In this document: positions 1 through 18,131 of the stretch, piece after piece
Numbering within the stretch: position 1 is the stretch's first letter
Layout: the number at the start of each line of letters is the position of its first letter
Assembly (NCBI GenBank): GCA_029260795.1
Contig: JAJDCO010000087.1
Coordinates: forward strand, 81,926 to 145,925
Direction of reading: 5' to 3'
DNA: 64,000 nucleotides
Source: Planctomycetota bacterium
GTDB lineage: Bacteria; Planctomycetota; OFTM77
The notes under the pieces: generated by a model
What the model was told of the DNA's origin: nothing
The model's input: the letters and a program-made list of their open reading frames with translations, nothing else
The model's database searches: none
Position numbers and translations under genes: made by a program

Positions 1-539
1 AGGCAGCGCGATTTGGCGACGTAGACCTGGTCGATGGTCATCTCGAGGTCGCGCGAGATCTCTTCGGCCGGTTGGTCGCGGAGCGCGAAGCGGCGGAAGG
101 CCTCCACGGTTCGTTTCTCCATGCGCGTCGTCGCGCTGAGCTCGTCGACGGCACGACGCAGGATCTCGGTCTCGCACTCCCGGTCCCACCAGGTCGAGAC
201 GATCGGCTCGTGGGCGAGCTCCTGCACGACCGAGTCGCCTCGCCAACCCTCGACCCGTTGGCGTTTGCGATGGGCATCCACCAGGCATCGGCGCGCGATC
301 GCGAACATCCAGGTCTTGAGCTTGGCTCGCGCGGGATCGAAGCGCGCCGCGTTCTGGGCGAGGCGCATCAGCGTCTCCTGAGCCACGTCCTCGGCCTCGT
401 CGGAGCGGAGGCCGGCGCGTCGAGCCAGGCCTTGGATGATCGGCCGGTAGCGCTGGTCGATCTGCTGGAAGCTCTCCGGCCGACCGCTCTCGACGAACTC
501 GAGCAACAAGAACGAGGTGGTGTGGGTGCCGGAGACCAT
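1..539 (-). CDS. ECF-type RNA polymerase sigma factor, C-terminus cut by window edge
   Basis: Reverse-strand reading from ATG at 539: MVSGTHTTSFLLLEFVESGRPESFQQIDQRYRPIIQGLARRAGL..EAEDVAQETLMRLAQNAARFDPARAKLKTWMFAIARRCL..; closely matches the ECFs at 11677-12267 and 17544-18131. Missing from the ORF track because it runs off the window. Confidence 0.88.
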   Translation of the reverse strand, partial: MVSGTHTTSFLLLEFVESGRPESFQQIDQRYRPIIQGLARRAGLRSDEAEDVAQETLMRLAQNAARFDPARAKLKTWMFAIARRCLVDAHRKRQRVEGWRGDSVVQELAHEPIVSTWWDRECETEILRRAVDELSATTRMEKRTVEAFRRFALRDQPAEEISRDLEMTIDQVYVAKSRC

Positions 540-782
540 CGGGACCTGGGAGCCCTTTTCGCGGATGGGAATTCGCCTCGAGGTGCCCTCCGCATCGCGT
601 GCGGAAGGCACAGGAGCATCGGCTGTCGAAAGCGACTCACCGATCGTCGCAGACTTTCTCTCGGCGCACAACGAGATGCTGCGTCTGGTCGTAAGAGTCA
701 GCACGCACTCAAGCGCAGTGGGCTCTTGGGGTCGTTGAGCCCCTCGAGCTCTCGGGCGCACTCGTCGATGTCGACGGAAACC

Positions 783-825
783 GCCCGCCCGATCCACGAT
801 TTCATCGCGGTTCGAGCGGGCGGGC
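783..825 (-). terminator. Possible stem-loop downstream of the propeller-like gene
   Basis: GCCCGCCCG (783-791) and CGGGCGGGC (817-825) are reverse complements; long loop and no clear T-tract. Confidence 0.3.
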
Positions 826-860
826 TGTCGATCGGGGAGCCAGACCTTCGAGCGAACGCG

Positions 861-3413
861 TTACTTGATGATCATGCACACCGCGTTCGACTTGACCGAG
901 TTGGCGCCCGGCGGTCGAAGGATGATCACCTGACTGTAGATCGGGATGTTCTGGGTGTTGCCCGGTATCTGCACCGTCCACTCGGCGAAGCCGCAGCAGT
1001 TGGTCTTGAAGGGGCCGAAGAGGTTGATGGCCGGTAGCAGGTCCAGGCAAAAGGTGTTGCCGAAGAAGCACGGCCCATTGCCGATACCGGCCAGGCTGAG
1101 CAAGAGGTACACGGACTCACCTGGCTCACCTCCGTACACCCGGAAGGTGGCGGACTGACCGGCGACGAGGGGATCTTGGATCAGCACCAGATCGTTGTGA
1201 TAGGGCACCCTCGCGGCGAGGCCGTAGAGCGCGAGGCTCGAGTCGTACGCGGCTGAGCCGATGACGGATCCGTCGCGCTCGTCGACTCGGTAGAGGCTTT
1301 TCGGGGCCGCGTCGATGGCGAAGAGCGACGAGCCGCAGAACTCGATGTCGGTCGCCAAGTCGTAGGCGCTGTCCCCACCCTTGGGCGTGTAGCTCGAGGG
1401 CAAGCGATCGGACTCGTTGATGTTGGATGACGCAAAGGCGTTCATGCCGAAGATCTGACCGCTTGGATCCGTGCCCAAGCCATCGTAGTCCGCGGTGAAG
1501 CTGAGATGATCGACTACGCTGGCGGGATCGATCACGCCGTCGAGGCCGAGGATGCCCAGCTTCTCGCCCAGATTGGGAGTGGTGGACGTCCCAAACCCGA
1601 TGACGAGATCGTCACCCACGCTGGTCAGGCCTTCCGCGACCGTGACCGGAGGAGTCGCCGTGACGGGGACGGCCGAGATCATCGCGCCGGTATCCGGGTT
1701 GATCTCGACGAGATCCCAAGCGGTATAGGGTCCGGTCTCGGTGGTCGCGGTCAGCGCGTAGAAGGATCCACGGTGGAACGCGAGGTCGGTCATCTGGGAC
1801 ATGTTGTGTCCGATGATTTGACCAATGACGAGATGGTCGCCGGTCTCGGGCTCGAGCCGAATGAGCTCATCGGTGGCGGGGTTGACGCTGTAGAGCGGAC
1901 CGCACACGGGCCTGCAGACGGCCAGTCCCGAGAGTTCCAGGGGGGGGGTCAGCTTGGTCGAGCTGAGAAACGCCCCGTTGGTCGAGTCGATGCGGTGGAG
2001 CATCGGCCCGTTGGTGGCGTCGCGATCGATGCCCAGGAGCTGGTCGTGGCAGAAGGTCATGTCGTTCGCCTCCCACGCGTCCGAGGAGTGGGGCTCTTTA
2101 CCGAGCAGCGTGTGGTTGACAGGGATACGATCGGTCTCGTAGAGGTCGATCGAGGTGTTCGTGAACCACTGCTGGCTGGAGAAGATCTGGCCATACCGGT
2201 CCGTGGCGAGGGCGTCGAAATCGGCGTTGAAGCTCGTGTAGTCGATCGAGCTGATGATGAGGCCGGTGCTCGGAACGATCACGCCCAAGCGGTTGGCGAT
2301 GTACTCGAGGGGAGGGAGGTCTCCGAAGCCGACGATCAGCTCGTCGCCGACGCTGGTCAGCGACTCGACGTTGACCACCAAGCCGCCGCCCCAGGTGATC
2401 GGAAGCGCCGATCCGACCATCGCGCCCGTCTGGCAGTCGATCTCCAGCAGCCGATAGTCGGAGAGGGGCACGGATTCGGTCACCGCGTAGAGCTTGCCTT
2501 GGTGAAAGGCCAAGTCGGTCTTCTCCGCCATGATGAAGCCGATCCCTCCAACGTCGGAGACGAATCCGGAGGCTTGATCGATGGTCACGAGCCTGTTGCT
2601 GTCCGTATCGACACTGAAGACGCGACCACAGGAAGGCGGCGTCTTGGCGAGTCCGACCAAGCCGTTGGAGGGTTGAAGAGCCCGGGTCTTCAGCAGGCTG
2701 CCGTCGGTCGGGTCGATCCGGTGAATCGCCTGGCCGTTGGCCGAGATGCCGTAGAGGTGCGAGCCGCAGAACTCGAGGTCGTTCAGAGCGTGACCCGAAT
2801 TGTAGCCGCCGATCGGTGCCGGGGTTGCCGGAACCTGGCGAAAGCCCGAGAAGCTGTTGGCGCCGTTCTCGTAGTCGACCCCGATGAGCTGATGCTGGGG
2901 GCTGGTCGCCATCCCGTCCGTGTCGGTTCCGGGATAGCTGGCCACGCTGAGTGGGTCCACGTTGCCCGCAGTGTCGATGATGGCGATCTGGTCGCTCGTG
3001 AAGGAGGTTCCCGTGTTGCCGAAGCCGATCATGAGGTCGCCGCCGAGGCTGGTCAGCGACTCGACGACGTCCATCGGGACTCCCGTGACGGGTGAGGCGT
3101 TGACCTTTAACCCAGTCACCGGATCGATCTGGACCAGGTCCCAGGCCGTGGCGGGAAACGGCGTCCTGGCGATCACCGCGTAGACGAATCCTTCGTGAAA
3201 GGTGAGGTCCATCGTGTTCGACATGTCGTGGGTGATCGTCCCAACGACCGTGACGATGCCGGTCGGCGCATCGATCCTCACCAGCTCATCGGTTGCCGGG
3301 TCGATGCTGAAGAGCTCGTCGGCCGTCGCCGTTCCGACCACGAGGCTCATGGCGACCAGGAGGATGGCGAGCGGCTTGATCGCTGCATCAACGAGCCACG
3401 ACTGGGTTCTCAC
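861..3413 (-). CDS. Secreted protein with three internal propeller-like repeats and a C-terminal beta-rich domain
   Basis: ORF track 861..3761; likely GTG start at 3413 gives a signal peptide (VRTQSWLVDAAIKPLAILLVAMSLVVGTATA). Three copies of (L/V)(F/Y)S(I/V)(D/N)..T..L..(I/L)...G. Confidence 0.75.
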   Translation of the reverse strand: MRTQSWLVDAAIKPLAILLVAMSLVVGTATADELFSIDPATDELVRIDAPTGIVTVVGTITHDMSNTMDLTFHEGFVYAVIARTPFPATAWDLVQIDPVTGLKVNASPVTGVPMDVVESLTSLGGDLMIGFGNTGTSFTSDQIAIIDTAGNVDPLSVASYPGTDTDGMATSPQHQLIGVDYENGANSFSGFRQVPATPAPIGGYNSGHALNDLEFCGSHLYGISANGQAIHRIDPTDGSLLKTRALQPSNGLVGLAKTPPSCGRVFSVDTDSNRLVTIDQASGFVSDVGGIGFIMAEKTDLAFHQGKLYAVTESVPLSDYRLLEIDCQTGAMVGSALPITWGGGLVVNVESLTSVGDELIVGFGDLPPLEYIANRLGVIVPSTGLIISSIDYTSFNADFDALATDRYGQIFSSQQWFTNTSIDLYETDRIPVNHTLLGKEPHSSDAWEANDMTFCHDQLLGIDRDATNGPMLHRIDSTNGAFLSSTKLTPPLELSGLAVCRPVCGPLYSVNPATDELIRLEPETGDHLVIGQIIGHNMSQMTDLAFHRGSFYALTATTETGPYTAWDLVEINPDTGAMISAVPVTATPPVTVAEGLTSVGDDLVIGFGTSTTPNLGEKLGILGLDGVIDPASVVDHLSFTADYDGLGTDPSGQIFGMNAFASSNINESDRLPSSYTPKGGDSAYDLATDIEFCGSSLFAIDAAPKSLYRVDERDGSVIGSAAYDSSLALYGLAARVPYHNDLVLIQDPLVAGQSATFRVYGGEPGESVYLLLSLAGIGNGPCFFGNTFCLDLLPAINLFGPFKTNCCGFAEWTVQIPGNTQNIPIYSQVIILRPPGANSVKSNAVCMIIK

Positions 3414-4275
3414 GACAGAAGGTCGCGCGAAGCGCGCGAGAACCAAAGGGAACAGAGCGTACACGAGAGATCTCCTTGAGGTGGGTCTCCGGCTCCCCGC
3501 TCGGGGAAGTCGGGAGACGACGATGGAGCCATGCCCCACGAAAGACGAAACCGCGGCCTCACGCTTCCATCCTAGCAGGACGAATGAAGCGAGCGGCGCC
3601 CAACACGGCGTCGCCGTCAATGCGGTCTCAGGCAACGAGAGTGTAACCAGCTGCCACCCCACCGGAGAAACTCGAAAGGAAGTCGGGTGTCGGTGCGATG
3701 TCTTCGACCTCCCGACTGAAAGTCGGGCGTTGCGACGCTCGATGGAAAGCCGCTCTCTCACCTCGGTTCCTCTGTGGCGTCTCGGCCCGACTTCGTGGGA
3801 CGCGGTTCCTGGACCCGAGCGGCGGACTCCGTTCGCGCCTCTGCTCCATCAAGGCGCTGTCCGTCGAGAGTCGAGGCCTGCAAGGCCGGCCTTGTGAAAG
3901 CCCCGGGGCGAAGCCCTGGGAGTCGGTATGTTCATTTGTTCAAAGCGACATTGAATGTGCCGCGTAAGCCCTGTAGGAGCGGCGTCGGCGTGAGACGCGG
4001 TTCTTCGACCCGAGTGTCGGACTATGTTCGCGTCTCTGTTCCATCAACGGCGGTGACCGGCTGGCGATGCTCGTGTCGCATGAGTCGGTCCAACGCGGCG
4101 AAAGAAAATCTGTGCGAGGTGCAAGGTCTGCCGCTCCGAGGTCAATACGCAGCATCGATCAGTCGATCCGTGAGTCTCACACGGTGAGCCGCGGGTCGGG
4201 AACCGAAGACCACGAAGACCCCGCGCACTTGTTCCGAGTCGGGACGAAGGCGCTTCCTACGAGAAGGAAAAGGCC

Positions 4276-6315
4276 ATGAACACTCACAGCGACTCTCTTT
4301 CGGCAGCGCTTTCGACCGCAGGCACTCGATCGTCTCGTCGCACTCGGCGACCCGGCAGACTGCAGCGACTGACTCTGGTCGCGATGGCGGCGGTGAGCCT
4401 CTCGACGCTCGCCCTCGCACAGTATCAGGACCACGAGGACTTTGATCTGAACACAGATCTCGACCATCCGTACGACGTCGCGCTCTTCGATCCCAACACC
4501 CGGGTCTACGACAGCTTCCCCCAGTTTTACCTTGGAGGGACCTCGCTGGCGTTCGTTTCTGACCCCGTTCGAGAATTGGCAGGCGGAAAGCTCCATCAGT
4601 ATCAGGTCGATGGGAGGTGGCTCGCGACCTACGACGAGAACGCGCTGGGGTTTCCTTTCGACTTCAGAGATGGTCCCTACGGCGTCGCGGTGAACGACAA
4701 TCCCAGCGATGACAACTTCGGCCATATCTATGTCATTGGTGGCTTCGAACAATTCAATGGGGCCCCGTTTTGGCGCATTCGAGTCTACAAGATGGACAAC
4801 AACCGCTTCCAAACCAGCACCTACCAAAAGCTCGAAGTGGTGACCGACTTCTTTGGGAGGTCCCCCACTGATAGCCTCTTCCAGCCCAAGGGGCTCGCCG
4901 TGGATTCCGACGGCGACGTTTATGTGACCACTTATGACGATTCGAAGTCAGCAAGCGTCGTGCTCAAGTTTCATGGCGAAGACGTGAGCAAGTATGGCGG
5001 GTTCTACGCCCCGGAGGAACGGATGTATGTCCTTCCCAATGGCGACAGCGCTCGAGACGTGAGTGTGAGCTCCTTTGACAAGATCGTCACGATCGCGAGC
5101 ACCACCAAGGTGTACCGATTCCAGAACAACGGCACCTTCATCGACTCGGCGAGCCCGGGGACCGAGTGGAGTCAGTGCTCCCAAGAGATCCAAGGTGTTT
5201 GCGCCCGGGATCTCGCTGGGGATCTCTGCGGCAGAGTGTGGAACTCGGTACGGGTGGACGGTCCGCCGGCCTGCAAGTTTGGCAAGGTGGAACGGCGAGG
5301 TCCCAACAATGTCCAAAGTCTCGAATTCACGGCGGGTGGCCTCAACATTCTGGAACAGGGTTCTTCCGATCCGGGATCCCTCGGTCTCGAGCATGCCCGA
5401 ACGTGGGGCTTCAAGTACTCGTCGTCTGGGCCCTTCCAACTGCCGACGACCGTGCTCTGCCAGCCGAGTCTCTTCGTTTGCAATGACAGGTTCACGAATG
5501 CAAACGTCACCGTCCTCAAGGATTCCCCCATGGAATCCTGTCCTCTGCCGGACGACGCCGTCGCTTGGTGGCCATTCGATGACTGGCGAGCGTACCGAGG
5601 GTCGGGAGCTGTTTCTCCCAAACTCAACATGATGAAGAACCGGATCAATCGGGACGCGAATGGAGTGTTGAAGTCCAACAACGCTTTGATTCCTCTTCCC
5701 CCGACCGTGGAAGGGGTCGTCAAGACTGCCCTCGGTTCCAAGAGCAACGACGAGTGGGTCGAAGTGCCGGATCACCCCAGCGTCAACTTCGGGACAGACG
5801 ACATGACCATCGAAGGCTGGATCCGAGCCCGCCCTTCATGGGGAATCGGAGTCATCCTCGACAAACGCGGCTTGAACTCGAGCGGCAAGGACGCCGGCTA
5901 CGCTGCTTACCTCCACGGCGGATTCCTCTCCTTCCAGTCGCTGGTCGATGGGGCCGCCGGAGAGTACTCCAGCGTGACGTCCTCTGCGAAGATCGATGAC
6001 GAGAAGTGGCATCACTTCGCAATCGTCTTCGAAAACACATCTCCCGGTCCCGGTACAGTGGAGTTCTTCGTCGACGGAGAGGACACCGAACCCATCAACA
6101 ACAAGTGGTCCGTCGAGCATACCGGCGACCTGGACAACCTCAGCCCTCTCTATATCCTTCGCCACCGACCCGATTTCTCGGACGGGCTGTCCGGCCATCT
6201 CGATGAGCTCACTCTCTACCGCCGAGCGTTGGACAGGGATGAGGATATCAAGCCCATTCACGCCGCAGGCTGTGCGGGCAAGAACCGGCCCTATCGGGGG
6301 GCGAGGGGTCAGTAG
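4276..6315 (+). CDS. Secreted protein with N-terminal propeller/NHL-like region and C-terminal LamG (concanavalin A-like) domain
   Basis: 679 aa ORF; N-terminal hydrophobic segment; C-terminal AVAWWPFDD..VEVPDHPSVNFGTDDMTIEGWIRAR..KWHHFAIVF..LDELTLYRRAL is LamG-like. Confidence 0.85.
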   Translation: MNTHSDSLSAALSTAGTRSSRRTRRPGRLQRLTLVAMAAVSLSTLALAQYQDHEDFDLNTDLDHPYDVALFDPNTRVYDSFPQFYLGGTSLAFVSDPVRELAGGKLHQYQVDGRWLATYDENALGFPFDFRDGPYGVAVNDNPSDDNFGHIYVIGGFEQFNGAPFWRIRVYKMDNNRFQTSTYQKLEVVTDFFGRSPTDSLFQPKGLAVDSDGDVYVTTYDDSKSASVVLKFHGEDVSKYGGFYAPEERMYVLPNGDSARDVSVSSFDKIVTIASTTKVYRFQNNGTFIDSASPGTEWSQCSQEIQGVCARDLAGDLCGRVWNSVRVDGPPACKFGKVERRGPNNVQSLEFTAGGLNILEQGSSDPGSLGLEHARTWGFKYSSSGPFQLPTTVLCQPSLFVCNDRFTNANVTVLKDSPMESCPLPDDAVAWWPFDDWRAYRGSGAVSPKLNMMKNRINRDANGVLKSNNALIPLPPTVEGVVKTALGSKSNDEWVEVPDHPSVNFGTDDMTIEGWIRARPSWGIGVILDKRGLNSSGKDAGYAAYLHGGFLSFQSLVDGAAGEYSSVTSSAKIDDEKWHHFAIVFENTSPGPGTVEFFVDGEDTEPINNKWSVEHTGDLDNLSPLYILRHRPDFSDGLSGHLDELTLYRRALDRDEDIKPIHAAGCAGKNRPYRGARGQ

Positions 6316-6363
6316 GGGTGCGATTCGTCTGAGACTGGCCTGATCGACGGATCGGCCATAGAA

Positions 6364-6404
6364 GAGGCGCCGAGAGGGCAGGTCAACTGCTCTCTCGGCG
6401 CCTC
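6364..6404 (+). terminator. Strong hairpin downstream of the LamG gene, terminator-like
   Basis: Perfect 13-bp inverted repeat GAGGCGCCGAGAG (6364-6376) / CTCTCGGCGCCTC (6392-6404), about 50 nt after the stop; no obvious T-tract. Confidence 0.55.
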
Positions 6405-6493
6405 ACTGCGTAATTCGGCGCTTCAGGCACGAACCGAGATAGAGGTCTCTCCTGCGCCGCCCTTTCAGAGCGGCGACCGCCAGTGAGGTCTTT

Positions 6494-6544
6494 TCGGGTT
6501 GCGCATGGCTTCTTCTTTGTTGGGAACGCCGCTCGAAGCCCGAT
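6494..6544 (+). repeat. Dispersed noncoding repeat D, copy 1
   Basis: cgggttgcgcatggcttcttctttgttggga resembles 11280-11335 and 13839-13880. Confidence 0.45.
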
Positions 6545-6634
6545 GAGGCGGACATTGAACGCACGTCGACACGAAGAGCGTTGACCGCAGGCGCTCGCGC
6601 GCGGATGCTGCAGGGGCGTGCAGATCGCCATTCC

Positions 6635-6657
6635 CCGGGCCACGGCGGGGCCGTGTC
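6635..6657 (+). promoter_or_regulatory. Conserved GC-rich leader element upstream of kinase 1
   Basis: ccccgggccacggcggggccgtg ends about 14 nt before the ATG; nearly identical to the element before kinase 2. Confidence 0.35.
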
Positions 6658-6671
6658 CCGGAGAGGCCGCG

Positions 6672-9600
6672 ATGGATCCGGAGCCCCATGACCGCCTCGC
6701 CAATGCGTTTCGCCTGGTCAAGGAGTACGAGTCTCTCGATCCTCGGCCGACGGTGGACGAGTTCCTCGAAACGCACGCAAGCCTCGCGGATCTGATTCGC
6801 CCTCTGATTGCCGCGGAGCGCGTAGACGAACCGGAGCCAGCGCGCGTCTCAGGTGAGGCCGTGTTCTTCGGCCCCTACCAGGTGATCGAGACCCTGGGCG
6901 AGGGCTCCTTCGGTGTGGTCTACCGGGCGCTCCAGCGCGAGCCGCTGCGGCGAGAGGTGGCTCTCAAGGTCCTCAAGCCGGGAATGGAGACCCAGGAGAT
7001 CATCGCGCGCTTCGATGCCGAGCGTCACGCGCTGGCGTTGATGAATCATCCGAGCATTGCGCGCGTGATCGATGCCGGCGAGACGGACACGGGGCAATCC
7101 TACTTCGTGATGGAGCTGGTGCACGGTCGTCCGCTGACTCAGTTCTGCGACGAAGAGCGGTTGACGGTCGAGGAGCGGCTCGAGCTGTTCCGCCAGGTCT
7201 GCCTCGCGGTGGAGCACGCGCACCGAAAGGGCGTCGTGCACCGTGACCTCAAGCCGATGAACATCTTGGTGACGACAGTCGAGGACCGCCCCGTTCCCAA
7301 GGTCATCGACTTCGGGATCGCCAAGGCGATCGGTCGCAAGCTCACCGACAAGACGCTGTTCACTCAGGCCCGACTGGTCCTCGGCACGCCCTCCTACATG
7401 TCCCCCGAGCAAGCTCGCCAAACCAATCTGGACATCGATCATCGAAGCGACATCTACGCGCTCGGCGTGCTGCTGTACGAGCTGCTCACCGGCGTGCTCC
7501 CGATCGCGTTCGGCGACGACACGACCGGGTGCGATCTCTATCGGCAGATCTGGGAGGTGGACCCGCCACGTCCCTCGCACCGACTGCGCAGCTCCGGGGG
7601 CGACGCCGCTCCCGATTGGCCCGCGCGGCTGCACAGCGACACACGGTCCCTGCACGATGCGATCCGGGGTGATCTCGACTGGGTCGTCATGAAGTGTCTC
7701 GAGAAGGATCGGACCCGGCGCTACCCGACCGCCAAGGATCTGGCCGCCGATCTGGCGCACATCCTCGCGAACGAGCCCGTCGTCGCGCGCCCTCCCAGCC
7801 TCGCCTATCGCCTCCGCAAGCTCGCCCGCCGCAACCGCCCGGCGTCCGTCGCCGCGACCGTGGTGCTGGTGCTCGTGATCGTCGGCAGCGTCCTGACGGC
7901 CGGTCTGCTGGATTGGGCGCAGACGGAGAAGCAGACCGAGACGGAGCGGGCGAGCGTTGCGGCGGAGGCTGAAGCGAGGGCCACCTTCCTCCTGGGTGTG
8001 CAAGAAGCGCGCGACGACGGCGCCCCCGAAGGAGAGCGCTGGGCACTCGAGGAGATCCTCGAGCGCTCGAAGTTCCCGCCCCATCCGGCGTTGATACGGG
8101 TCCTGACCAAGATGTATCGGGAGAACCCCTGTCTCGCCACGATCCGGCTCAGGGAAAGCAGCGGGATTGCCGTCCGCCCCGGTGAGTCTCTTCGCGTGCG
8201 GGTCCTCAGCCGAGAGGGGTTGTTCGATTGGAATCTCGAATCGCTGGCGCTCGAGCCGGTCGAGATGCCCGCGGGTGTTGCTGGCTCTGAGTCGTTTCAG
8301 CTGAGTGCGGACGGAGAGCTCCTCACCTGGTGGAGGGGAGACGAGATGACTGTGGGACGAGCCGGTGAGTCTGGCTCGATCCGAACCGAGAGGATTCCTT
8401 TCAAGAGTGGAACAAGCGGGGCGTTCGTCCGGGTCGATTCCGCTCATCGAGCTGCGGTGGTGCGGGACAGCGAGACTGTCTGGCTGAGTCCGAACATCGA
8501 GTTTCAGCCTCTGACGCGCTTTGAAACGCCTCCCGTGGCGTTCCGCGTGGCGTTCTCGCCGTCGGGTGAGGCGACCGTCGCGACCTTGGGTGATCGGGAT
8601 GCCTTTGAGCTCTTGATCCGTCGGGAAGGCGAATGGTCTCCGTTGGCCAGCCTGCAAGAGCGAACCCCGTATTCTCCGGAGGTTGCGAGAAGCTCCCTCA
8701 AGTTCACCTGGATCGATGGTGATTCGGCACACATCTTTGGCTGGTTCGGGACGGAGTACGTGGAGATCTTGGCGACCGACGCCGAAGAAGATGAGCAGCG
8801 GTCGCGGCTCGAACCGAGTCTGGGCGCCGGTCAGGTCCAGGCCTTGGCCAGCTCGGGCGACTTCCTGGCGGCCGCGAGCGAGGAAAGGCGAATCCAGGTT
8901 TGGAATCGATCCGGTTCCGGCATAGCCGGCTTTGATCAGCGAGCGGATTTCGGCGGCATCGAGAGGCCGGCCAATCAGCTCGTCTTCAGTGAGGCGGAGC
9001 AAGAGCTCGTCAGCCATCACAAGGGACCGGGAAACGTGCGCGTTTGGGAGACCAAGTCGGGGCTCGACTACCAACGCCTGTATTCTGAGAGCGAACGTCA
9101 GGGCCTGCTCGACCGCTACGGCGCTCGCTTCTCAATAAACGGTCTGGCCATCAACGAGCGATTCCTCGTTTCCAGCGGAGGAGACCACGGGAATGGCTTC
9201 CTGAGTGTTCAGCAGATGGACAGCACGGGGCGTCTGGCGACGGGGCGTCCGAAGACGGAGCTGAAAGAGCAGATTCTGCCTAAGGTGGTCGGCTCCGTGG
9301 CGTTCTCTCCCGACGGTGCCTGGCTCGCCGTCTCGGACTACGCGGGCACGATTCGGGTGCTCGAAACGGAGAGCTGGCGAGTGATCGCCGTGGAGCACTC
9401 AGAGTCGACGCAGACTGCGGAGAAGGTCGCGAGCCTGTGCTGGCACCCGAGCCGCCCACTTCTGCTCGGCGGCAGCTCTCAGGGGGATCTCTTGGCCTGG
9501 GACATCCCCACCGGAGGCGATGCGACGCTCCACCGCCGCCGAGTGCCGATGCATGAGGGCCGAGTGTCGGGTGTCGCGGTGCATCCCAACGCTCAATGGA

Positions 9601-10175
9601 TCGCATCGACCGATCCTTCCGAGAGTGGAAAGCTCGTCGTCTGGAAGTGTCTCGACACGGGACCGGGCGACGTGCTTTGGGAAGAGAAGGTGCCCCAGGT
9701 GCGCGCTCCGCGCTTCCTGGACGATCGCTGGCTCGCCGTCGGCTCGTACGATCGGCTGATACTCTTCAATGTCGAGACCCGTCAAAAGGTCGTGACCGAC
9801 CCTCGCCATAAAGGCGAGGTCTACTCGCTGGCCGTGGATCCGAAGACGGGCTTCCTCGCCAGTGGTGGAGAAGACGGTCGAGTCTTGCTCTGGCAGGTCG
9901 AGGATGGTCGGATCGAGTTCCTCGAGACCTTGCGAGCTAAGGCTTCGAACGCCTCCTGCCTTGAGCTGGCTTTCACGCCGAACGGCCGGTACCTCGCCGC
10001 TGGCTTCCAGAAGGGCGTCGAGAGCGGCATCTGGGACCTGCACTACTACGAGCGCCACATCGCCGGCAACCTGGCCGGGCTTCTAGGTGAGGAGCTCGGC
10101 GCCGGGCGAATGGCCGACGCCGATCCACGCGTGCACAAGGCGCGCGCGTGGATCGAGGAGAAGTGGAACCACTGA
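6672..10175 (+). CDS. Ser/Thr protein kinase with TM segment and C-terminal WD40-repeat region
   Basis: GEGSFGVVYRAL, VALKVLKPGM, HRDLKPMNILV, DFGIAKA, GTPSYMSPEQA; TM SVAATVVLVLVIVGSVLTAGLL; WD-like repeats such as VAFSPDGAWLAVSDYAGTIRVLETESWR. Start set to MDPEPHDRL (track begins at 6618). Confidence 0.95.
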   Translation: MDPEPHDRLANAFRLVKEYESLDPRPTVDEFLETHASLADLIRPLIAAERVDEPEPARVSGEAVFFGPYQVIETLGEGSFGVVYRALQREPLRREVALKVLKPGMETQEIIARFDAERHALALMNHPSIARVIDAGETDTGQSYFVMELVHGRPLTQFCDEERLTVEERLELFRQVCLAVEHAHRKGVVHRDLKPMNILVTTVEDRPVPKVIDFGIAKAIGRKLTDKTLFTQARLVLGTPSYMSPEQARQTNLDIDHRSDIYALGVLLYELLTGVLPIAFGDDTTGCDLYRQIWEVDPPRPSHRLRSSGGDAAPDWPARLHSDTRSLHDAIRGDLDWVVMKCLEKDRTRRYPTAKDLAADLAHILANEPVVARPPSLAYRLRKLARRNRPASVAATVVLVLVIVGSVLTAGLLDWAQTEKQTETERASVAAEAEARATFLLGVQEARDDGAPEGERWALEEILERSKFPPHPALIRVLTKMYRENPCLATIRLRESSGIAVRPGESLRVRVLSREGLFDWNLESLALEPVEMPAGVAGSESFQLSADGELLTWWRGDEMTVGRAGESGSIRTERIPFKSGTSGAFVRVDSAHRAAVVRDSETVWLSPNIEFQPLTRFETPPVAFRVAFSPSGEATVATLGDRDAFELLIRREGEWSPLASLQERTPYSPEVARSSLKFTWIDGDSAHIFGWFGTEYVEILATDAEEDEQRSRLEPSLGAGQVQALASSGDFLAAASEERRIQVWNRSGSGIAGFDQRADFGGIERPANQLVFSEAEQELVSHHKGPGNVRVWETKSGLDYQRLYSESERQGLLDRYGARFSINGLAINERFLVSSGGDHGNGFLSVQQMDSTGRLATGRPKTELKEQILPKVVGSVAFSPDGAWLAVSDYAGTIRVLETESWRVIAVEHSESTQTAEKVASLCWHPSRPLLLGGSSQGDLLAWDIPTGGDATLHRRRVPMHEGRVSGVAVHPNAQWIASTDPSESGKLVVWKCLDTGPGDVLWEEKVPQVRAPRFLDDRWLAVGSYDRLILFNVETRQKVVTDPRHKGEVYSLAVDPKTGFLASGGEDGRVLLWQVEDGRIEFLETLRAKASNASCLELAFTPNGRYLAAGFQKGVESGIWDLHYYERHIAGNLAGLLGEELGAGRMADADPRVHKARAWIEEKWNH

Positions 10176-10213: not shown

Positions 10214-10456
10214 TTCCGGAGTGCGGTCGCGAGCACCGCGAGCTGCCGCGGCGAAGTGCGGTAGCAAGGTCACGAGATTCCGCCGTGGAGTGCGAACGAG
10301 ATTCCGCCGGCGGACAACTTCTTCCGGAGTGCGGCCGCGAGCACCGCGAGCTGCCGCTGTGGAGTGCGGTAGCAAGGTAGCGAGATTCCGCTGGCGGACA
10401 GCTTCTTCCGGAGTGCGGCCGCGAGCACCGCGAGCTGCCGCTGTGGAGTGCGGTAG
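10214..10456 (+). repeat. 84-bp direct tandem repeat, about 2.6 copies; first copy carries a 24-bp internal insertion
   Basis: ttccggagtgcggycgcgagcaccgcgagctgccgc starts at 10214, 10322 and 10406 (spacings 108 and 84). Confidence 0.85.
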
Positions 10457-10483
10457 TGATCCTCCCCCGTCCTCGAGGACACC

Positions 10484-11221
10484 ATGACCTCCTGCCCGCG
10501 TCCTCCGGGCGCCGTCGCCTGGTGGTCGTTCGACGACCACGTTTGGCCGGATAAGAATGTCGTGGCCAACCGGCTCAACTCTGGCGCGAATGGAAAGAGG
10601 AAGTCGGCCAAGGGAGCCCCCCTTCCCCCAACCGTGGAAGGCGTCGTTCGAACCGCCATCGGTTCCAAGGACGGCAACGATTGGGTCGAAGTGCCCGATC
10701 ACGAGAGTATCGACTTCGGTACCGACAGCCTGACGATCGAGGGTTGGATTCGCGCCCGAGAAGATGAATTGGGAGTCCAGCCCTTCATCGAGAAGCGTGG
10801 TCAGCATCCCATTTCGGGCGCGGACAGTGGCTACCATGCTTATCTCCACGACGGACGCCTGTGCTTCCAGACAGTGGCCGCTGGAGTCCCCAAGAACTTG
10901 GAATCCCAACTGATGATCGCGGACGAGGAGTGGCATCATTTCGCGATCGTCTTCGACCAGAGTTCCGGGAACGTGACCTTCTACAATGATGGAGTGTCTG
11001 AGCTTCTCACCGGCGCCGTGACCGGAGACCTCGACAACATCGCCCCTCTCTTTCTCCTTCGCCACCGACCCACGGCCACGAACGGACTGAACGGCGAGCT
11101 CACGTTCTATCGGAGAGCCCTGCTCGATACGGAAATCCAGGACATCTTCAACGCCGGTTGTGCGGGCAAGGGCCTTCCCGGGCTGACGGGGACGTACCAA
11201 CTGACCAAGTGCTACTCGTGA
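10484..11221 (+). CDS. LamG-domain protein, 5'-truncated paralog of 4276-6315; possible pseudogene
   Basis: 245 aa: GAVAWWSFDD..PLPPTVEGVVRTAIGS..DWVEVPDHESIDFGTDSLTIEGWIRARED..EWHHFAIVF..FYRRAL, colinear with the C-terminus of 4276-6315; no signal peptide. Confidence 0.65.
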   Translation: MTSCPRPPGAVAWWSFDDHVWPDKNVVANRLNSGANGKRKSAKGAPLPPTVEGVVRTAIGSKDGNDWVEVPDHESIDFGTDSLTIEGWIRAREDELGVQPFIEKRGQHPISGADSGYHAYLHDGRLCFQTVAAGVPKNLESQLMIADEEWHHFAIVFDQSSGNVTFYNDGVSELLTGAVTGDLDNIAPLFLLRHRPTATNGLNGELTFYRRALLDTEIQDIFNAGCAGKGLPGLTGTYQLTKCYS

Positions 11222-11279
11222 ACGCTCACAGGAGCCCGTGGGGAGCGGGCTCCATCACTCTCACGAGCCGAGTGCTGCT

Positions 11280-11335
11280 TTCGGGTGGCACGCGGCTTTC
11301 TTCTTGGTTGGGAGAGCGATCGAAGCTCGATTCCG
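11280..11335 (+). repeat. Dispersed noncoding repeat D, copy 2
   Basis: tcgggtggcacgcggctttcttcttggttggga resembles 6494 and 13839 copies. Confidence 0.45.
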
Positions 11336-11676
11336 CTGACTCCGAAGCTCGCCCGGATCTCGGTGCGATCGTTAGCACCGCGTCCGAGGATGTCGCCCCT
11401 TCAGGGCGCCGCCCTGCGTTCGCCTCATCCAGGGCCATGAGATCTCCGGCACTTCGGGCCTCGCGTTCGCCAGCAGGAATGCTTCGGGCGAATCGGTCGC
11501 CCTGCTCACCGCGGCCGGGGTCGCATTATCGCACCGCAGGCTCCCTTGGTGGTTCGCTGCGCCGCGGCCTGTTCCGTCGCGCTCGATTGGCTGCGGGCGC
11601 AATTGCGCTGCGGAAGGTCCCGTTGCTCTCAAACCGCGGCAGCTCGCCGGGAACTGCATCCACCGTAGCCGCAAGC

Positions 11677-12267
11677 TCAATCGAGCTCGTAGAGGGAGCG
11701 CAGCGTCTCGACGATCGGGCGGAGCTTGACCAGGCAGCGGGACTTCGCGACGTAGACCTGCTCGACGGTCATCTCGAGCGAGCGCGCGATGTCTTCGGCG
11801 GTCTCGCCTTTGACCGCGAACCGCTCGAAGGCGTCGACGGTGCGGGCGTCGGTCCGCGTCGTGCGCAGCTCTTCGATGGCGCGACGCAGGATCTCGGCTT
11901 CGCAGGCTCGCTCCCACATCGTCGAGACGACCGGCTCTTCGGCCAGCTCCTGGACGATCGAGTCTCCTCTCCAACCGGCCTGCTTCTGGCGTGTGCGAAA
12001 GGCCTCGTTGAGGCAGCGGCGGGCGATGCCGAACATCCACGTCTTGAGCTTGGCGCGCTCGGGGTCGAAGCGCGTGGCGTTCTGAGCCAGCCGAATCAGC
12101 GTCTCTTGGGCGAGGTCCTCGGCACCATCGGCTTGCAGTCCGGCTCGGCGACCCAAGCCTTCCAAGATCGGTCGGTAGCGCTCATCGATCTGCCGGAAGC
12201 TCTCGGGGCGACCGCTCGCCACGAAGTCGAGCAAGAGGAGAGATGTGGTGTCGGCGGGCGATGGCAT
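11677..12267 (-). CDS. ECF-type RNA polymerase sigma factor
   Basis: 196 aa: LLLLDFVASGRPESFRQIDERYRPILEGLGRRAGLQADGAEDLAQETLIRLAQNATRFDPERAKLKTWMFGIARRCLNEAFR..AEDIARSLEMTVEQVYVAKSRCLVKLRPIV. Confidence 0.93.
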   Translation of the reverse strand: MPSPADTTSLLLLDFVASGRPESFRQIDERYRPILEGLGRRAGLQADGAEDLAQETLIRLAQNATRFDPERAKLKTWMFGIARRCLNEAFRTRQKQAGWRGDSIVQELAEEPVVSTMWERACEAEILRRAIEELRTTRTDARTVDAFERFAVKGETAEDIARSLEMTVEQVYVAKSRCLVKLRPIVETLRSLYELD

Positions 12268-12563
12268 CTCGACTTGGAGACCCTTCGGTGTGGGTGAGCC
12301 GCCTCTTGATCATCGGCGCGGAGCAAGGGGGGCGAGACCTCGGGCGCGGTTTGGAACGGCACGCAGAGTGTCAGAGTTCGGCACCGCACGCAACGCGAGG
12401 TCTCCGCTCGGGCTCGAGGGGAGAGGGGATTGGTGTGCCAGGGCGGAGGCTTTGGCAGTTTTCGGCCCTCGAAGAAACAATTCGGATTGAAGTGTAAGGA
12501 TCGTCCCGGTGGCGCGAATACGCAGCAGTCAGACAATCAAACCTTCATTGGGAGATCAGAATC

Positions 12564-13745
12564 ATGAAACGCTTCACCACGGCACTGCTGCTGTCCCTCG
12601 CCTTTCCTCTCGCGTCCGCTTCCGCTCAAACGATCGTGTTCCGCTCGGGCAACGGGAGCGTGGGGGATCCCGATAGCCGCATCACGTTCCTGGCCGGTGC
12701 GTCCGAGTCGGAGCTCCGTTCGAGTGCCTTCGTGGCGCAGGACTTCTCGGACGCCGAGAACGGCCCGGCCGCGACGATCGTGACGGAGTACGCCGGATGG
12801 CTGCCGAGCATCACGGACTCGAAGGCGCGTTGGGTCGCCGTCGACACCAACCGCACCCCAAAGTCGGCGCTCTACGCCATCAAGTTCCACGTCGACAATG
12901 TTTGCTGGGAAGCGGCATCGCTCCAGTTCTCGTTCGCGACCGACGACCAGCTCGGGGACCTGTCGGGAGGATCGAACGAGCTCGGCCTCTTTCTCAACGA
13001 GCAGCCCTTGGCCGGCTCGAACGGTGGCAGCTTCAACACCGAAACGACTCTGGGCGTCTACGACGTCACGGGGCTTCTTCAGCCCGGTGAGAACACGCTC
13101 TACTTCTACAATCGGGACAAGGCACGCGTCGTGAGCGGTGTCATCTTCAGTGGTCGCGTTCAGATCACTCCGATGGCGCCGGTCTACCTGACCGATCAGT
13201 TGACCTCGAACCGCTTCAATGGTCTGCCGAACAACACGCTTCAGCTGACGGCGACCTACGACGGCGTTTCGGGTGGCCAGCTCCTCGAGATCGAGTTTCG
13301 CCATGTGCCGTCCGGCCAGAAGACCTGGGTCGTCATGCCGGCTCTGTTCGACCGCAGCACTCGCATCAACACCTTCGAGTTCGACATCTGTGACTGGGTG
13401 CCGACCTGCCGCTGCCGGATCAGTGGCGTCGTCCCCAACGGCGGCCTCGACGGCATCGCGTTCGGCATGTTCTGGAAGGACAAGGACGGCAACTACGACC
13501 TGCTCAAGAGTCGTGCGAATGCTCCGGCGAGCTTTGCGGCCTTCGAGGGTGCCTGGCCGATCAGTTACAGCTCTGCCACCTTCGACTTCCTGACGCCGCA
13601 GCTCGCGGTCTGTCCGAATGGCGGCTGCCGCGATCAGGCGCGAGCCATGCTCTACGGGTCCGAGGTGATGGGAAATGGCGTCCACCTGATCTGCTGCGCG
13701 CGTGGAGGCAATCTCCCGAAGGAGAGTGATCCGAGACTCAAATGA
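12564..13745 (+). CDS. Secreted protein of unknown function
   Basis: 393 aa with signal peptide MKRFTTALLLSLAFPLASASAQ; no domain recognised; C-terminal half contains several Cys residues. Confidence 0.75.
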   Translation: MKRFTTALLLSLAFPLASASAQTIVFRSGNGSVGDPDSRITFLAGASESELRSSAFVAQDFSDAENGPAATIVTEYAGWLPSITDSKARWVAVDTNRTPKSALYAIKFHVDNVCWEAASLQFSFATDDQLGDLSGGSNELGLFLNEQPLAGSNGGSFNTETTLGVYDVTGLLQPGENTLYFYNRDKARVVSGVIFSGRVQITPMAPVYLTDQLTSNRFNGLPNNTLQLTATYDGVSGGQLLEIEFRHVPSGQKTWVVMPALFDRSTRINTFEFDICDWVPTCRCRISGVVPNGGLDGIAFGMFWKDKDGNYDLLKSRANAPASFAAFEGAWPISYSSATFDFLTPQLAVCPNGGCRDQARAMLYGSEVMGNGVHLICCARGGNLPKESDPRLK

Positions 13746-13765
13746 GTCGGGCGACGATGACCACG

Positions 13766-13798
13766 ACGGGAGGTCTCTCCGAGCGGAGACCCTCCCGT
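13766..13798 (+). terminator. Hairpin downstream of secreted protein gene
   Basis: acgggaggtctc..gagaccctcccgt inverted repeat with a one-base bulge, just after the stop at 13745; no T-tract. Confidence 0.45.
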
Positions 13799-13838
13799 CC
13801 GGTTCCGGCGACCTCCGCCAACCGCCGCGTGCCACCCT

Positions 13839-13880
13839 CGGGTCGCACGCGGCTTTCTTTGATGGTTGGCGCCAGCGTGA
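13839..13880 (+). repeat. Dispersed noncoding repeat D, copy 3
   Basis: tcgggtcgcacgcggctttctttgatggttgg resembles the copies at 6494 and 11280. Confidence 0.45.
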
Positions 13881-13977
13881 ATTCGTTGCGGCCACGGGCG
13901 CGAAGCCTCTCGCACCCCCGAGCATTGACCTGGGGATTCGTCGCGCCGATGCTGGTGACCTGTACCAGTCGATAGTC

Positions 13978-14000
13978 CCCGGGCCCACGGCGGGGCCGCG
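13978..14000 (+). promoter_or_regulatory. Conserved GC-rich leader element upstream of kinase 2
   Basis: ccccgggcccacggcggggccgcg about 18 nt before the ATG; matches the kinase 1 leader. Confidence 0.35.
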
Positions 14001-14017
14001 CAGCAAAGAGGTCCCTC

Positions 14018-17000
14018 ATGAGCTTGGAGTACCACGAACGTCTCGCCAGTGCGTTGCGCCTGGCCGACGAGTACGAGGAGCTCACCCCGCGGCCGACCGT
14101 CGACGAGTTCCTGGACCGGCACGCCGACCTCGCCGAGCTGATCCGCCCTCTGATCGATGTGGAGCTGGCTGAGGAGGTGAAAGAGGAGCCCGATTCCATC
14201 GAGGGCCTTTCCTTCGGCCCCTACGAAGTGATCGAGACGCTCGGCGAAGGCGCCTTCGGTATCGTCTACCGGGCGCTTCAGCGGGAGCCGCTCCGCCGCG
14301 AGGTGGCGCTCAAGGTGCTCAAGCCCGGCATGGACAGCCGAGAGGTCCTCGCGCGCTTCGACGCCGAGCGTCACGCGCTCGCCTTGATGGACCACCCGAA
14401 CATCGCACGGGTCATCGACGCCGGTGAGACCGAATTGGGGCGACCCTACTTCGTGATGGAGCTCGTGCCGGGTCGACCGCTGACGCAGTTCTGCGACGAG
14501 GAGCGTCTGACTGTCCGGGCACGGCTGGAGCTGTTCATTCGAGTCTGCCGCGCTGTCGAGCATGCACATCGCAAAGGCATCGTGCACCGCGACCTCAAGC
14601 CGATGAACATCCTGGTGCGGTCAATCGAAGACCGACCGGTTCCCAAGGTGATCGACTTCGGAATCGCCAAGGCGCTCGATCGCAAGCTGACCGACAAGAC
14701 GCTGTTCACGCAGGCCCGACTCGTCATCGGAACGCCCGCCTACATGTCGCCCGAGCAGGCTCGCCAGACGACGTCCGAGATCGATCAGCGCAGCGACGTC
14801 TACTCGCTGGGCGTCATCCTGTACGAGCTCCTGACCGGAGTGCTGCCGATCCAGTTCGTGGACGATGCGACCGGTCTCGATCTCTATCGGCAGATCTGGG
14901 ACGTCGAGCCGGCTCGGCCGTCACAGCGACTGGGCACGGGCGGCGACGTCGGACCGGACTGGGCGACAGGGCTCCGGAGCGACTCGCGCGCTCTCCTGGA
15001 GAAGGTTCGGGGCGATCTCGACTGGATCATCATGAAGTGCCTCGAGAAGGATCGGACGCGGCGCTACGCCAGCGCGAAAGACTTGGCCGACGACCTGACG
15101 CACTTCCTCGCGAACGAGCCGGTGGTGGCGCGGCCCCCGAGCTTGACCTACCGGCTTCGCAAGCTCGTGCGCCGCCATCGCACGGCGAGCGTCTTCGGGG
15201 CAGCCATGCTGGTGCTGCTGCTCGCCGGTGGTATCGTGACTGTCGCCGTCTTGGATTGGGTTCAAGGCGAGAAGCAGGCGGAGGGCGAACGAGCCCGCCT
15301 GGCCAGCGAGCGCGCAGCGGAGGCGGAGTTTCGCCGCGGCGTGCGACGCGCGCGTGATGAAAGGGCACCGGCCGGGGAGCGCTGGGCGCTCGCCGAGATC
15401 CTCGAGCAGTCGTCGATCCCTCCGGATCCGATCTTGATCGGCCTGCTGAGTGAGATGTACCGGCTCAATCCGTGTCTGGCTTCGATCCCGTTCGGAGTCG
15501 AGGGTGCCACCGCCGTCGTGCGTTCCGGCTTCCCGCTGCGACTGCGCGTCCTCCACAAAGAGGGACTCTTCGATTGGGATTTCGAGATGCTCGCGCTCGC
15601 TTCCGTCGACCTCGCGGCGGACCTCAGCCGCGCTGACCGGATAGCCCTCAGCCCGGATGGAGAGATCTTCGGCTGGCTGGAGGGTGACCAGCTCTCTATT
15701 CAACGAGTGGGCGAGGCCCAGCCCCTTCGCCCGCCGCAGACCGTTTGGGGGGTCGGCTTTTCGAATGACCTGGGGGCAACGGCGAGCTTCAAGATCATCC
15801 CCCCTCGCCGCGGTCTCCTGTTCGCGGATAACGAGAGCTACTGGATAAGCGAGAACGTCGAATCGCAGCCGCTGACTCGGGTCCGAGCACCCGATCTCAT
15901 CATGCCGAGGGTCGTGTTCAACGCCTCCGGGGATCCGACGGTCGCCACGCTCGGGGATGCGGCCGGCTTCGAGTTCCTGACCCGGCGCGACGGCGTCTGG
16001 AAGGAGTTGGCCCAAGTCGATCATCCCATCATCCTCCCGCCTGACCGTCCCGGCCGCAAAACCGCTCAGTTCCAATGGCTGAACGGTGATCCCAGCCGAC
16101 TCCTGTTTTCGATCGAGACTGGAAGCCTGGAGGTGCTGACCCTGGGTGCGGATGGGAAGGCCAGGCGACAGCTGGGGGCTATTCCATTGGTCGGCCTGAT
16201 CATCGGGTTGACCAGCTCAGACGACCTCCTGGCGGCCTCGGACAGGGGTGAACTCGTTCGCATCGCACAGCGGTCCGGTCCGGGCGAGATCGACTATCGC
16301 TTGCGGGCGTCTTTCGACGGATTCGAAGCACCAGCCGACGAACTGCAGTTCGACTCCCAAGGTCAACGGCTCGTCAGCAAGCACGGGGATGGCACGGTCC
16401 GCGTCTGGGAGACCGAAGTGGGGCTCGACTACCAGCGCCTCTACTCTGAGAGCGACCGCGGTGATCTTGTCGACAAAGCTCGATACGGTCCGGGATTCTC
16501 GATTCACGGCCTGGCCATCAGTCCCGACAATCGCTTCATCGCGGCCGGCGGGGGCGAGCTCGACCAGGGCTTTTTGAGCGTTCAGCGCGTCAAAAGCACG
16601 GAGCTCTTGAAGACGGAGCTGAGCGAGGAAACGCTTCCTCGACAGATCGGGGGCGTCGCGTTCTCAGCTGACAGCGCCTGGCTGGCGGTCTCCGACTACG
16701 CCGGGGTCGTGCGAGTTCTCGAGACCGAGACCTGGCGGGTGATTGCCCGAGGCCGATATCTGGACCAGCGCGAGAACCAGGTCACGAGCTTGAGCTTTCA
16801 TCCGAGCCAACCCCTGCTGCTCGGCGGCGGCTATCAGGGAGAGCTTGTCGTTTGGGACGTCCGGAGCCAAACCGATGCGATGCCGCGCCGACTGGTGCCG
16901 GCGCACGACCATCGGGTGTCCGGGGTCACGATCCATCCGAGGGCTCGATGGATCGCATCGACGTGTCCCCGGACCCGGGAGCTGATCGTCCGCGAGTGCC

Positions 17001-17527
17001 TCGCCGAGGGTCCGGGTGCGGTGCTTTGGAAGGCGATCGTGCTCGACGCCCGCACCCCGTGCTTCGTGGGAGATCGCTGGCTCGCCGTCGGGACAAGAGA
17101 TCGGCCCCGCATCTTCGAGCTCGAGACGGGCCGCTGGCTTCCGGGGCCTGAATCGGGGCGCCATCTGGGACCGATCTTCACGTTAGCGCATAGTCCGAAA
17201 ACGGGACTTCTCGCCAGCGGCGGCCGCGATGGTCAAGTCTTGCTCTGGCTCGTTCTCGACACGGGTCAGATCGAGTTTCTCGAGACGCTGCGCGGACGGA
17301 ATGGAGACCCATGCTTCAAGCTGGCCTTCACGCCCGACGGCCGTCATCTCGCCGCTGCATTCGAGAACGGAGTCGAGAGCGGTGTCTGGGACTTGCGTTA
17401 TTATGAGCGTCACATCGCCGGCAACCTGGCCGGCGTCCTCGAGGCCGAGCTACGAGCCGGCCGCGACATCGATGCCGAGCGCGTCTCAGAGCTGCGCGCC
17501 TGGATCGACGAAGCTTGGAACCGCTGA
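14018..17527 (+). CDS. Ser/Thr protein kinase with TM segment and C-terminal WD40-repeat region, paralog of 6672-10175
   Basis: GEGAFGIVYRAL, VALKVLKPGM, HRDLKPMNILV, DFGIAKA, GTPAYMSPEQA; TM VFGAAMLVLLLAGGIVTVAVL; colinear with kinase 1 along its length. Confidence 0.95.
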   Translation: MSLEYHERLASALRLADEYEELTPRPTVDEFLDRHADLAELIRPLIDVELAEEVKEEPDSIEGLSFGPYEVIETLGEGAFGIVYRALQREPLRREVALKVLKPGMDSREVLARFDAERHALALMDHPNIARVIDAGETELGRPYFVMELVPGRPLTQFCDEERLTVRARLELFIRVCRAVEHAHRKGIVHRDLKPMNILVRSIEDRPVPKVIDFGIAKALDRKLTDKTLFTQARLVIGTPAYMSPEQARQTTSEIDQRSDVYSLGVILYELLTGVLPIQFVDDATGLDLYRQIWDVEPARPSQRLGTGGDVGPDWATGLRSDSRALLEKVRGDLDWIIMKCLEKDRTRRYASAKDLADDLTHFLANEPVVARPPSLTYRLRKLVRRHRTASVFGAAMLVLLLAGGIVTVAVLDWVQGEKQAEGERARLASERAAEAEFRRGVRRARDERAPAGERWALAEILEQSSIPPDPILIGLLSEMYRLNPCLASIPFGVEGATAVVRSGFPLRLRVLHKEGLFDWDFEMLALASVDLAADLSRADRIALSPDGEIFGWLEGDQLSIQRVGEAQPLRPPQTVWGVGFSNDLGATASFKIIPPRRGLLFADNESYWISENVESQPLTRVRAPDLIMPRVVFNASGDPTVATLGDAAGFEFLTRRDGVWKELAQVDHPIILPPDRPGRKTAQFQWLNGDPSRLLFSIETGSLEVLTLGADGKARRQLGAIPLVGLIIGLTSSDDLLAASDRGELVRIAQRSGPGEIDYRLRASFDGFEAPADELQFDSQGQRLVSKHGDGTVRVWETEVGLDYQRLYSESDRGDLVDKARYGPGFSIHGLAISPDNRFIAAGGGELDQGFLSVQRVKSTELLKTELSEETLPRQIGGVAFSADSAWLAVSDYAGVVRVLETETWRVIARGRYLDQRENQVTSLSFHPSQPLLLGGGYQGELVVWDVRSQTDAMPRRLVPAHDHRVSGVTIHPRARWIASTCPRTRELIVRECLAEGPGAVLWKAIVLDARTPCFVGDRWLAVGTRDRPRIFELETGRWLPGPESGRHLGPIFTLAHSPKTGLLASGGRDGQVLLWLVLDTGQIEFLETLRGRNGDPCFKLAFTPDGRHLAAAFENGVESGVWDLRYYERHIAGNLAGVLEAELRAGRDIDAERVSELRAWIDEAWNR

Positions 17528-17543
17528 GGACCCGTCGTCCGTT

Positions 17544-18131
17544 TCAGTCGTAGAGCCCGCGCAGTCGCTTGACGATCGGTCGGAGCTTCACGAGGCAACG
17601 GGATTTGGCGACGTAGACGTGGTCGACGGGCATGTCGAGCGCGCGCGCGATGTCTTCGGCCGACTCGTTGCGAAGCGCGAAGCGTTCGAAGGCCTCCAAC
17701 GTGCGCTTGTCGGTGCGCGTCTTTTTGCGTAGCTCATCGAGGGCACGACGTAGGATCTCGGCCTCGCACTCGCGCTCCCACCAGGTCGCGACGACGGGCT
17801 CCTGCGCGAGCTTCTGGACGACCGAGTCGCCGCGCCAGCCTCGATTCTTTTGGAGCTTTCGAAAGGCATCTGCCACGCAACGACGGGCGATCGCGAACAT
17901 CCACGTCTTGAGCTTGGCTCGCTCTCGATCGAAGTTAGGGGCGGTCTGGGCGAGCCGCATCATGGCGATCTGAGCGACGTCCTCGGCCTCTTCGGCTTGC
18001 AAGCCGGCGCGGCGCGCGAGGCCCTCCACGATCGGTCGGTAGCGCTCGTCGATCTGTTGGAAGCTCTCCGGTCGGCCGCTCTCCACGAAATCGAGGAGCA
18101 GGAACGACGTGGTGTTGGAACCGGAGACCAT
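17544..18131 (-). CDS. ECF-type RNA polymerase sigma factor
   Basis: Start at MVSGSNTTSFLLLDFVESGRPESFQQIDERYRPIVEGLARRAGLQAEEAEDVAQIAMMRLAQTAPNFDRERAKLKTWMFAIARRC; paralog of the other two ECFs. Confidence 0.93.
   Translation of the reverse strand: MVSGSNTTSFLLLDFVESGRPESFQQIDERYRPIVEGLARRAGLQAEEAEDVAQIAMMRLAQTAPNFDRERAKLKTWMFAIARRCVADAFRKLQKNRGWRGDSVVQKLAQEPVVATWWERECEAEILRRALDELRKKTRTDKRTLEAFERFALRNESAEDIARALDMPVDHVYVAKSRCLVKLRPIVKRLRGLYD

Follow-up and report, generated by a model that had tools for sequence, protein, structure and literature searches.

Three tandem kinase and ECF sigma factor gene pairs in a planctomycete genome, with kinases from outside the sigma lineage's usual partner family

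Genes and features of the locus

The DNA analysed here (the window) is a stretch of 64,000 nucleotides, C146:81926-145925, from a Planctomycetota genome of 8.1 Mb in 160 contigs. Based on gene calls and Pfam searches, it carries intact genes for two proteins that combine a kinase domain, one transmembrane (TM) segment and WD40 propellers (K2 and K3) and for two ECF sigma factors (E2 and E3), with a third ECF gene (E1) at its left edge. The contig extends leftward, and this flank (L023, C146:63000-82600) encodes a complete kinase-TM-WD40 gene, K1, which lies wholly outside the window, the pair K1/E1 straddling the edge. The kinase and ECF genes had been predicted at these same positions from the letters alone, and the domain searches confirmed them (Pkinase around 1e-43, WD40 well over cut-off, Sigma70_r2 from 1e-13 to 1e-16). 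Both kinase-ECF modules of the original prediction are real, although its count was one short, the total being three; its additional ECF at the left edge, starting at 539, is indeed a paralogue of the other two, and K3 and E3 do converge across 16 nt. The main features are as follows (window positions unless marked L023).

L023:15238-18735, + strand: K1, kinase-TM-WD40 protein of module 1, 57-60% identical to K2/K3; outside the window
1-539, - strand: E1, ECF sigma factor of module 1 (full gene L023:18872-19465); Sigma70_r2 1.5e-16; 72-73% identical to E2/E3
861-3701, - strand: predicted secreted repeat/propeller protein with DUF6923 repeats (3.3e-18), between modules 1 and 2
4276-6315, + strand: secreted NHL-like and LamG protein before K2; Laminin_G_3 1.2e-17
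6581-6609, + strand: promoter-like element TTGACC-N17-GATGCT before K2, one of three genome copies
6672-10175, + strand: K2, kinase-TM-WD40 propellers, 1167 aa; Pkinase 1.3e-43, WD40 2.2e-27; without HxxxCxxC
10484-11221, + strand: LamG-only ORF between K2 and E2; Laminin_G_3 1.8e-15; 51% identical to residues 413-672 of the 4276-6315 protein
11677-12267, - strand: E2, ECF sigma factor of module 2; Sigma70_r2 2.1e-13; GAED in sigma2.2
12564-13745, + strand: S3, secreted protein before K3; one genome paralogue (66%); no Pfam or NCBIfam match
13925-13953, + strand: promoter-like element TTGACC-N17-GATGCT before K3, one of three genome copies
14018-17527, + strand: K3, kinase-TM-WD40 propellers, 1169 aa; Pkinase 3.4e-43, WD40 3.3e-22; without HxxxCxxC
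17544-18131, - strand: E3, ECF sigma factor of module 3; Sigma70_r2 2.6e-15; EAED in sigma2.2

Along the contig, the order is S1(+), a kelch-like gene(-), a gene for a 430-aa secreted protein(+), K1(+), E1(-), DUF6923(-), NHL/LamG(+), K2(+), the LamG remnant(+), E2(-), S3(+), K3(+) and E3(-). All three kinase-ECF pairs are convergent, with gaps of 136 nt (K1-E1), 1501 nt (K2-E2) and 16 nt (K3-E3). The kinase domain nearest to E2 is that of K3, on its other side and divergent, and E2 and S3 diverge from an intergenic region of about 300 bp. Neither tRNA nor Rfam matches were found in the window.

A single hydrophobic stretch preceded by basic residues, together with the finding that planctomycete kinase-TM-WD40 proteins mostly have a cytoplasmic kinase and periplasmic WD40 repeats (PMC11032199), suggests that K1-K3 hold the kinase domain inside and the propellers outside. 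The PASTA/PknB-type kinase model NF033483 gave 243.8 bits, below its equivalog cut-off of 450, and a motif search found no HxxxCxxC in K1-K3. Membership of E2 and E3 in the ECF family is supported by Sigma70_r2 matches over cut-off and by TIGR02937 scores of 68.3 and 60.4 bits, respectively (cut-off 42.9).

The gene preceding the kinase differs by module. Secreted proteins do stand ahead of each kinase, as originally proposed, but they are not the same gene: NHL/LamG before K2, the unclassified S3 before K3 and the unrelated 430-aa protein before K1. The only paralogue of S3 in the genome, S1 (L023:10601-11761, 66%), lies three genes upstream of K1 and does not adjoin it. S3 was rejected as a conserved cargo, as a search of 393 phylum genomes found it at full length in the source genome only; its N-terminal half alone has weak relatives in 4 of the 393. 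Judged by this gene content, the secreted genes are outside the constant core of the module. The LamG-only ORF is probably a remnant of an NHL/LamG copy, given its 51% identity to the LamG end, its lack of a visible signal peptide and the 84-bp tandem repeat that it adjoins.

Tandem repeats lie beside the modules at 10297-10456 (84 bp, 1.9 copies, 97%) and 18359-18602 (116 bp, 2.1 copies, 91%), and near-identical copies of a dispersed repeat, about 27 bases long, occur at 18547-18586, 39392-39422, 54004-54030, 54138-54164 and L023 ~4009-4035. The left flank also encodes a fusion of an ECF sigma factor with some 750 residues that contain carboxypeptidase-regulatory-like repeats (L023:1135-3987), and roughly ten more ECF domains of the source genome sit in open frames of 800-1040 aa.

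Copying of the pair and its deeper history

The paralogy of the modules is beyond doubt, with blastn E-values down to 0.0. Kinase domains are 79-83% and ECFs 72-73% identical among the three copies, and the propellers are much less alike (36-40% for the first, 49-58% for the second). Silent distances are similar for the kinase domain (0.70-0.79) and the ECF (0.54-0.73), which points to a probable joint duplication of K and E; the duplicated kinase-WD40/ECF units first noticed in the sequence are upheld. With dN/dS below 1 throughout (kinase domain about 0.14-0.17, ECF 0.26-0.31, propeller 1 0.41-0.50), every copy of K and E has remained under purifying selection. By the same identities, the outer sensor region is the part that diverged most, while the kinase domain and the ECF stayed similar.

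Partners of related ECFs were surveyed through a profile search of 393 genomes, related to the source at phylum level and none closer, which yielded 29 ECF loci from other genomes, examined with their flanks (L218-L246). In 26 of the 29, the ECF lies directly upstream of a same-strand kinase, and 21 of those 26 kinases carry HxxxCxxC before the kinase domain; the five that do not still match the partner family better than they match K1-K3, L223 least clearly. The same gene order recurs at eight named matches from Planctomycetota and Verrucomicrobiota (L055-L062; HxxxCxxC in 7/8), the nearest named ECF relatives being Planctomycetota MAGs. Unlike these loci, the window pairs are convergent, and K1-K3 fall outside the HxxxCxxC-kinase family, lacking the motif and belonging to another clade.

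HxxxCxxC (Hx3Cx2C) is the motif by which class I anti-sigma domains, which bind zinc, are recognised (PMC7406223). The zf-HC2 Pfam match to this region was below cut-off (0.01) and occurred in one of five kinases, so that an anti-sigma reading rests on motif and position; a single HxxxCxxC protein may possibly serve as both kinase and anti-sigma factor. Our literature search found no paper on HxxxCxxC-bearing kinases beside ECFs. The expected absence of an anti-sigma factor holds in part: no canonical anti-sigma gene was seen in the window cluster, yet at homologous loci the partner kinase usually carries this motif.

In the ECF tree (60 rows), E1-E3 group together (100/100), nested in a 12-row clade (100/98) with eight ECFs that neighbour HxxxCxxC kinases and with an orphan ECF on contig C56 of the source genome. 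In the kinase tree (77 rows), where HxxxCxxC was flagged solely in kinases beside these ECFs, K1-K3 likewise group together (99), inside a 35-row clade (95). This clade includes eight kinases beside PF07638 sigma factors and, K1-K3 apart, none beside an ECF of the E1-E3 type; many kinases of the K family are near no ECF. AU tests rejected grouping K1-K3 with either of two partner kinases, that of L167, the nearest ECF relative (p 0.0015), and that of L055 (p 0.00015). Given these differing clade neighbours and rejected groupings, the trees indicate that the K and E families are not old partners and that their lineages are incongruent at depth. The congruence that the original prediction had set as its own refutation test is thus lacking at depth; within the three copies both trees are star-like and do not resolve cognate pairing.

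The C56 orphan (L025:9769-10404; C56:51783-52352) is about 40% identical to the window ECFs and lacks a kinase in the surrounding 10 kb or so. It converges, at 84 nt, with a NorB-like gene that, by eye, we take to be of nitric oxide reductase type. As an ECF of this lineage standing without a kinase, it suggests that the arrival of the new kinase partner followed, or roughly coincided with, the loss of the old one.

Chance adjacency, sigma2.2 motif and upstream elements

In family searches of the source genome, 39 of some 112 ECFs had a kinase domain no more than 5 kb away, where about 13 would be expected; in 23 of those 39, the kinase comes after the ECF on the same strand. Kinase linkage is known for several planctomycete ECF groups (PMC8999054), and ECF-kinase pairing itself is ordinary in these bacteria. 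Because the background in this kinase-rich genome is about 12% per ECF for a kinase within 5 kb, any single adjacency is weak evidence. Three further tail-to-tail ECF/kinase pairs, from other families, occur in the same genome.

C158:161000-169000: tail-to-tail pair, gap 130 bp (L204)
C158:133500-141500: tail-to-tail pair, gap 37 bp (L205)
C131:31500-38000: tail-to-tail pair, gap 258 bp (L206)

With the window units counted as one event, four immediate convergent neighbours were seen against a chance estimate of about 0.8, which assumes 6,750 genes (P about 0.01, a rough value).

The acidic sigma2.2 motif is intact in all three window ECFs: EAED in E1, GAED in E2 and EAED in E3. ECF43 proteins lack this motif and gain charge by phosphorylation, while the remaining kinase-linked groups retain a DAED-like motif and may have another mode of action (PMC8999054). 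An EcfP-type switch was rejected for E1-E3 on this ground, and with it the EcfP-like activation first proposed for the locus; because the acidic motif is kept, any phosphorylation of these ECFs must act otherwise. In the PknS/EcfK system, a phosphosite in the EcfK linker can matter for the ECF (PMC13147305). Two linker positions are Ser/Thr in all of E1-E3 and are candidates only: Ser103 (Ser/Thr in 18/32 relatives, acidic in 6/32) and Thr116, which, being Ser/Thr in only 2/32 relatives and acidic in 9/32, is no strong candidate.

Upstream of K1, K2 and K3, at -85, -91 and -93, lies TTGACC-N17-GATGCT, whose hexamer bases are identical at 12/12 positions across the kinases, against 21/120 in the upstream background. 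The exact form occurs three times in the whole 8.1-Mb genome, each time ahead of one of these kinases, and its use as a wide regulon was rejected accordingly. The element is similar to a sigma70 -35 followed by a poor -10, or could be an ECF site; the kinase promoters may possibly be ECF targets themselves. Looser matches number 40 in the window against a shuffle mean of 17 and, the exact ones of K2 and K3 aside, form no clear set upstream of genes. No shared motif is visible in alignments of the ECF upstream regions, and a promoter common to the ECFs and the secreted genes was rejected on the same alignments. Since the ECF upstream regions have nothing visible in common and the sole shared element precedes the kinases, the proposed ECF control of secreted cargo, which moreover differs between modules, is unsupported. 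Between promoter-like element and kinase start codon lies a GC-rich inverted repeat (CCCCG...CGGGG type; ~6640-6671, ~13985-14017 and L023 ~15200-15237) that varies in sequence between copies and may be a 5' leader hairpin.

Competing explanations and relation to known systems

Our best explanation, which we put a little short of probable, is that the kinase controls the neighbouring ECF in a triplicated, re-paired unit. The unit, present in three tandem copies, joins a membrane Ser/Thr kinase, whose WD40 propellers are predicted to be extracytoplasmic, to a tail-to-tail ECF. The partner found beside the ECF lineage elsewhere, a same-strand kinase of the family that mostly carries HxxxCxxC, would have been lost in the source lineage, and a motif-free kinase of another clade would have come to stand beside the ECF; this pair would then have triplicated, the outer propeller diversifying while kinase domain and ECF were kept. 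Each kinase may sense an outside ligand through its propellers and phosphorylate its ECF at a site other than the EcfP sigma2.2 switch, possibly in the sigma2-sigma4 linker, with Thr116 as a candidate. A fuller version, in which the motif-free kinase alone controls an ECF with an intact core-binding motif, the triplication yielded three sensors and the kinase promoters are possibly ECF targets, seems to us rather unlikely as a whole. Several observations weigh against kinase control: with their acidic motif intact, E1-E3 may be active without phosphorylation; triplication would copy any chance neighbour too, against the background noted above; and the pairing of E2 is ambiguous, its nearest kinase domain being that of K3.

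A serious competitor, if on the doubtful side, holds that K and E are adjacent without functional link, the ECF having lost its partner and now being governed through its own synthesis or by an anti-sigma factor encoded elsewhere, and that a chance neighbourhood was triplicated. The orphan on C56, the intact DAED-like motif, the background frequency of nearby kinases, the deep incongruence of the partners and the many K-family kinases far from any ECF all fit this account. It sits less easily with purifying selection on both intact genes in all three copies, with the several independent tail-to-tail pairs in this genome, and with a kinase partner being the rule for this ECF clade in other genomes. 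Alternatively, each ECF could belong with the kinase on its other side (E1-K2, E2-K3), in divergent ECF - secreted gene - kinase units, as the proximity of K3 to E2 and the E2/S3 intergenic region might suggest; this is improbable, as it leaves E3 without a kinase and K1 without an ECF, two unrelated genes separate E1 and K2, and K1-E1 and K3-E3 are direct tail-to-tail neighbours. The model proposed at the outset, EcfP-like activation of an intrinsically inactive ECF with output to neighbouring secreted surface proteins, agrees with the kinase beside each ECF, the lack of a visible anti-sigma gene in the cluster and the secreted genes adjoining the kinases. We nonetheless consider it very unlikely, as the defining defect of EcfP is absent, the secreted genes vary between modules, and the one shared upstream element marks the kinases rather than the ECFs or the secreted genes.

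Taken together, the locus is an ordinary system, a kinase-linked ECF, in an unusual form: the genes converge, the pair is triplicated and the kinase does not come from the usual partner family. It looks like a rewired, then copied signalling pair. The suggestion of an undescribed variant survives through this kinase partner and not through secreted cargo. Direct kinase control of ECFs has been shown in few cases, none of them from a planctomycete in the literature consulted; the locus speaks to how kinase-linked ECFs with an intact core-binding motif are controlled. It offers a natural comparison, with the same ECF lineage beside an anti-sigma-motif kinase elsewhere, beside a motif-free kinase here and alone on C56, and specificity could be compared among its three diverged copies within a single genome. 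If the re-pairing reading is true, sigma factors would be able to change kinase partners.

Among described systems, E1-E3 resemble ECF59, ECF61, ECF62 and ECF217, as described in PMC8999054 (a comparison by description and not by group models), in standing beside a Ser/Thr kinase and not an anti-sigma gene; like planctomycete kinase-linked ECFs, they have a kinase neighbour and no separate anti-sigma gene. In contrast to those groups, the window kinase is convergent and from another clade than the lineage's usual partner. EcfP/PknT of Vibrio parahaemolyticus and EcfK/PknS of Xanthomonas citri, both ECF43 systems, likewise place an ECF beside a transmembrane kinase. Direct phosphorylation has been demonstrated for them. 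ECF43 proteins typically have Thr in place of the acidic sigma2.2 motif that E1-E3 retain, the EcfK linker phosphosite being the closer analogy. With respect to ASDI (Hx3Cx2C, PMC7406223), the motif lies before the kinase domain in the partner kinases of the relatives but is absent from K1-K3. Finally, K1-K3 share the plan of Planctomycetota kinase-TM-WD40 proteins (kinase, single TM, C-terminal WD40 array; PMC11032199), and it is their ECF neighbour and their triplication, not their domain plan, that set them apart.
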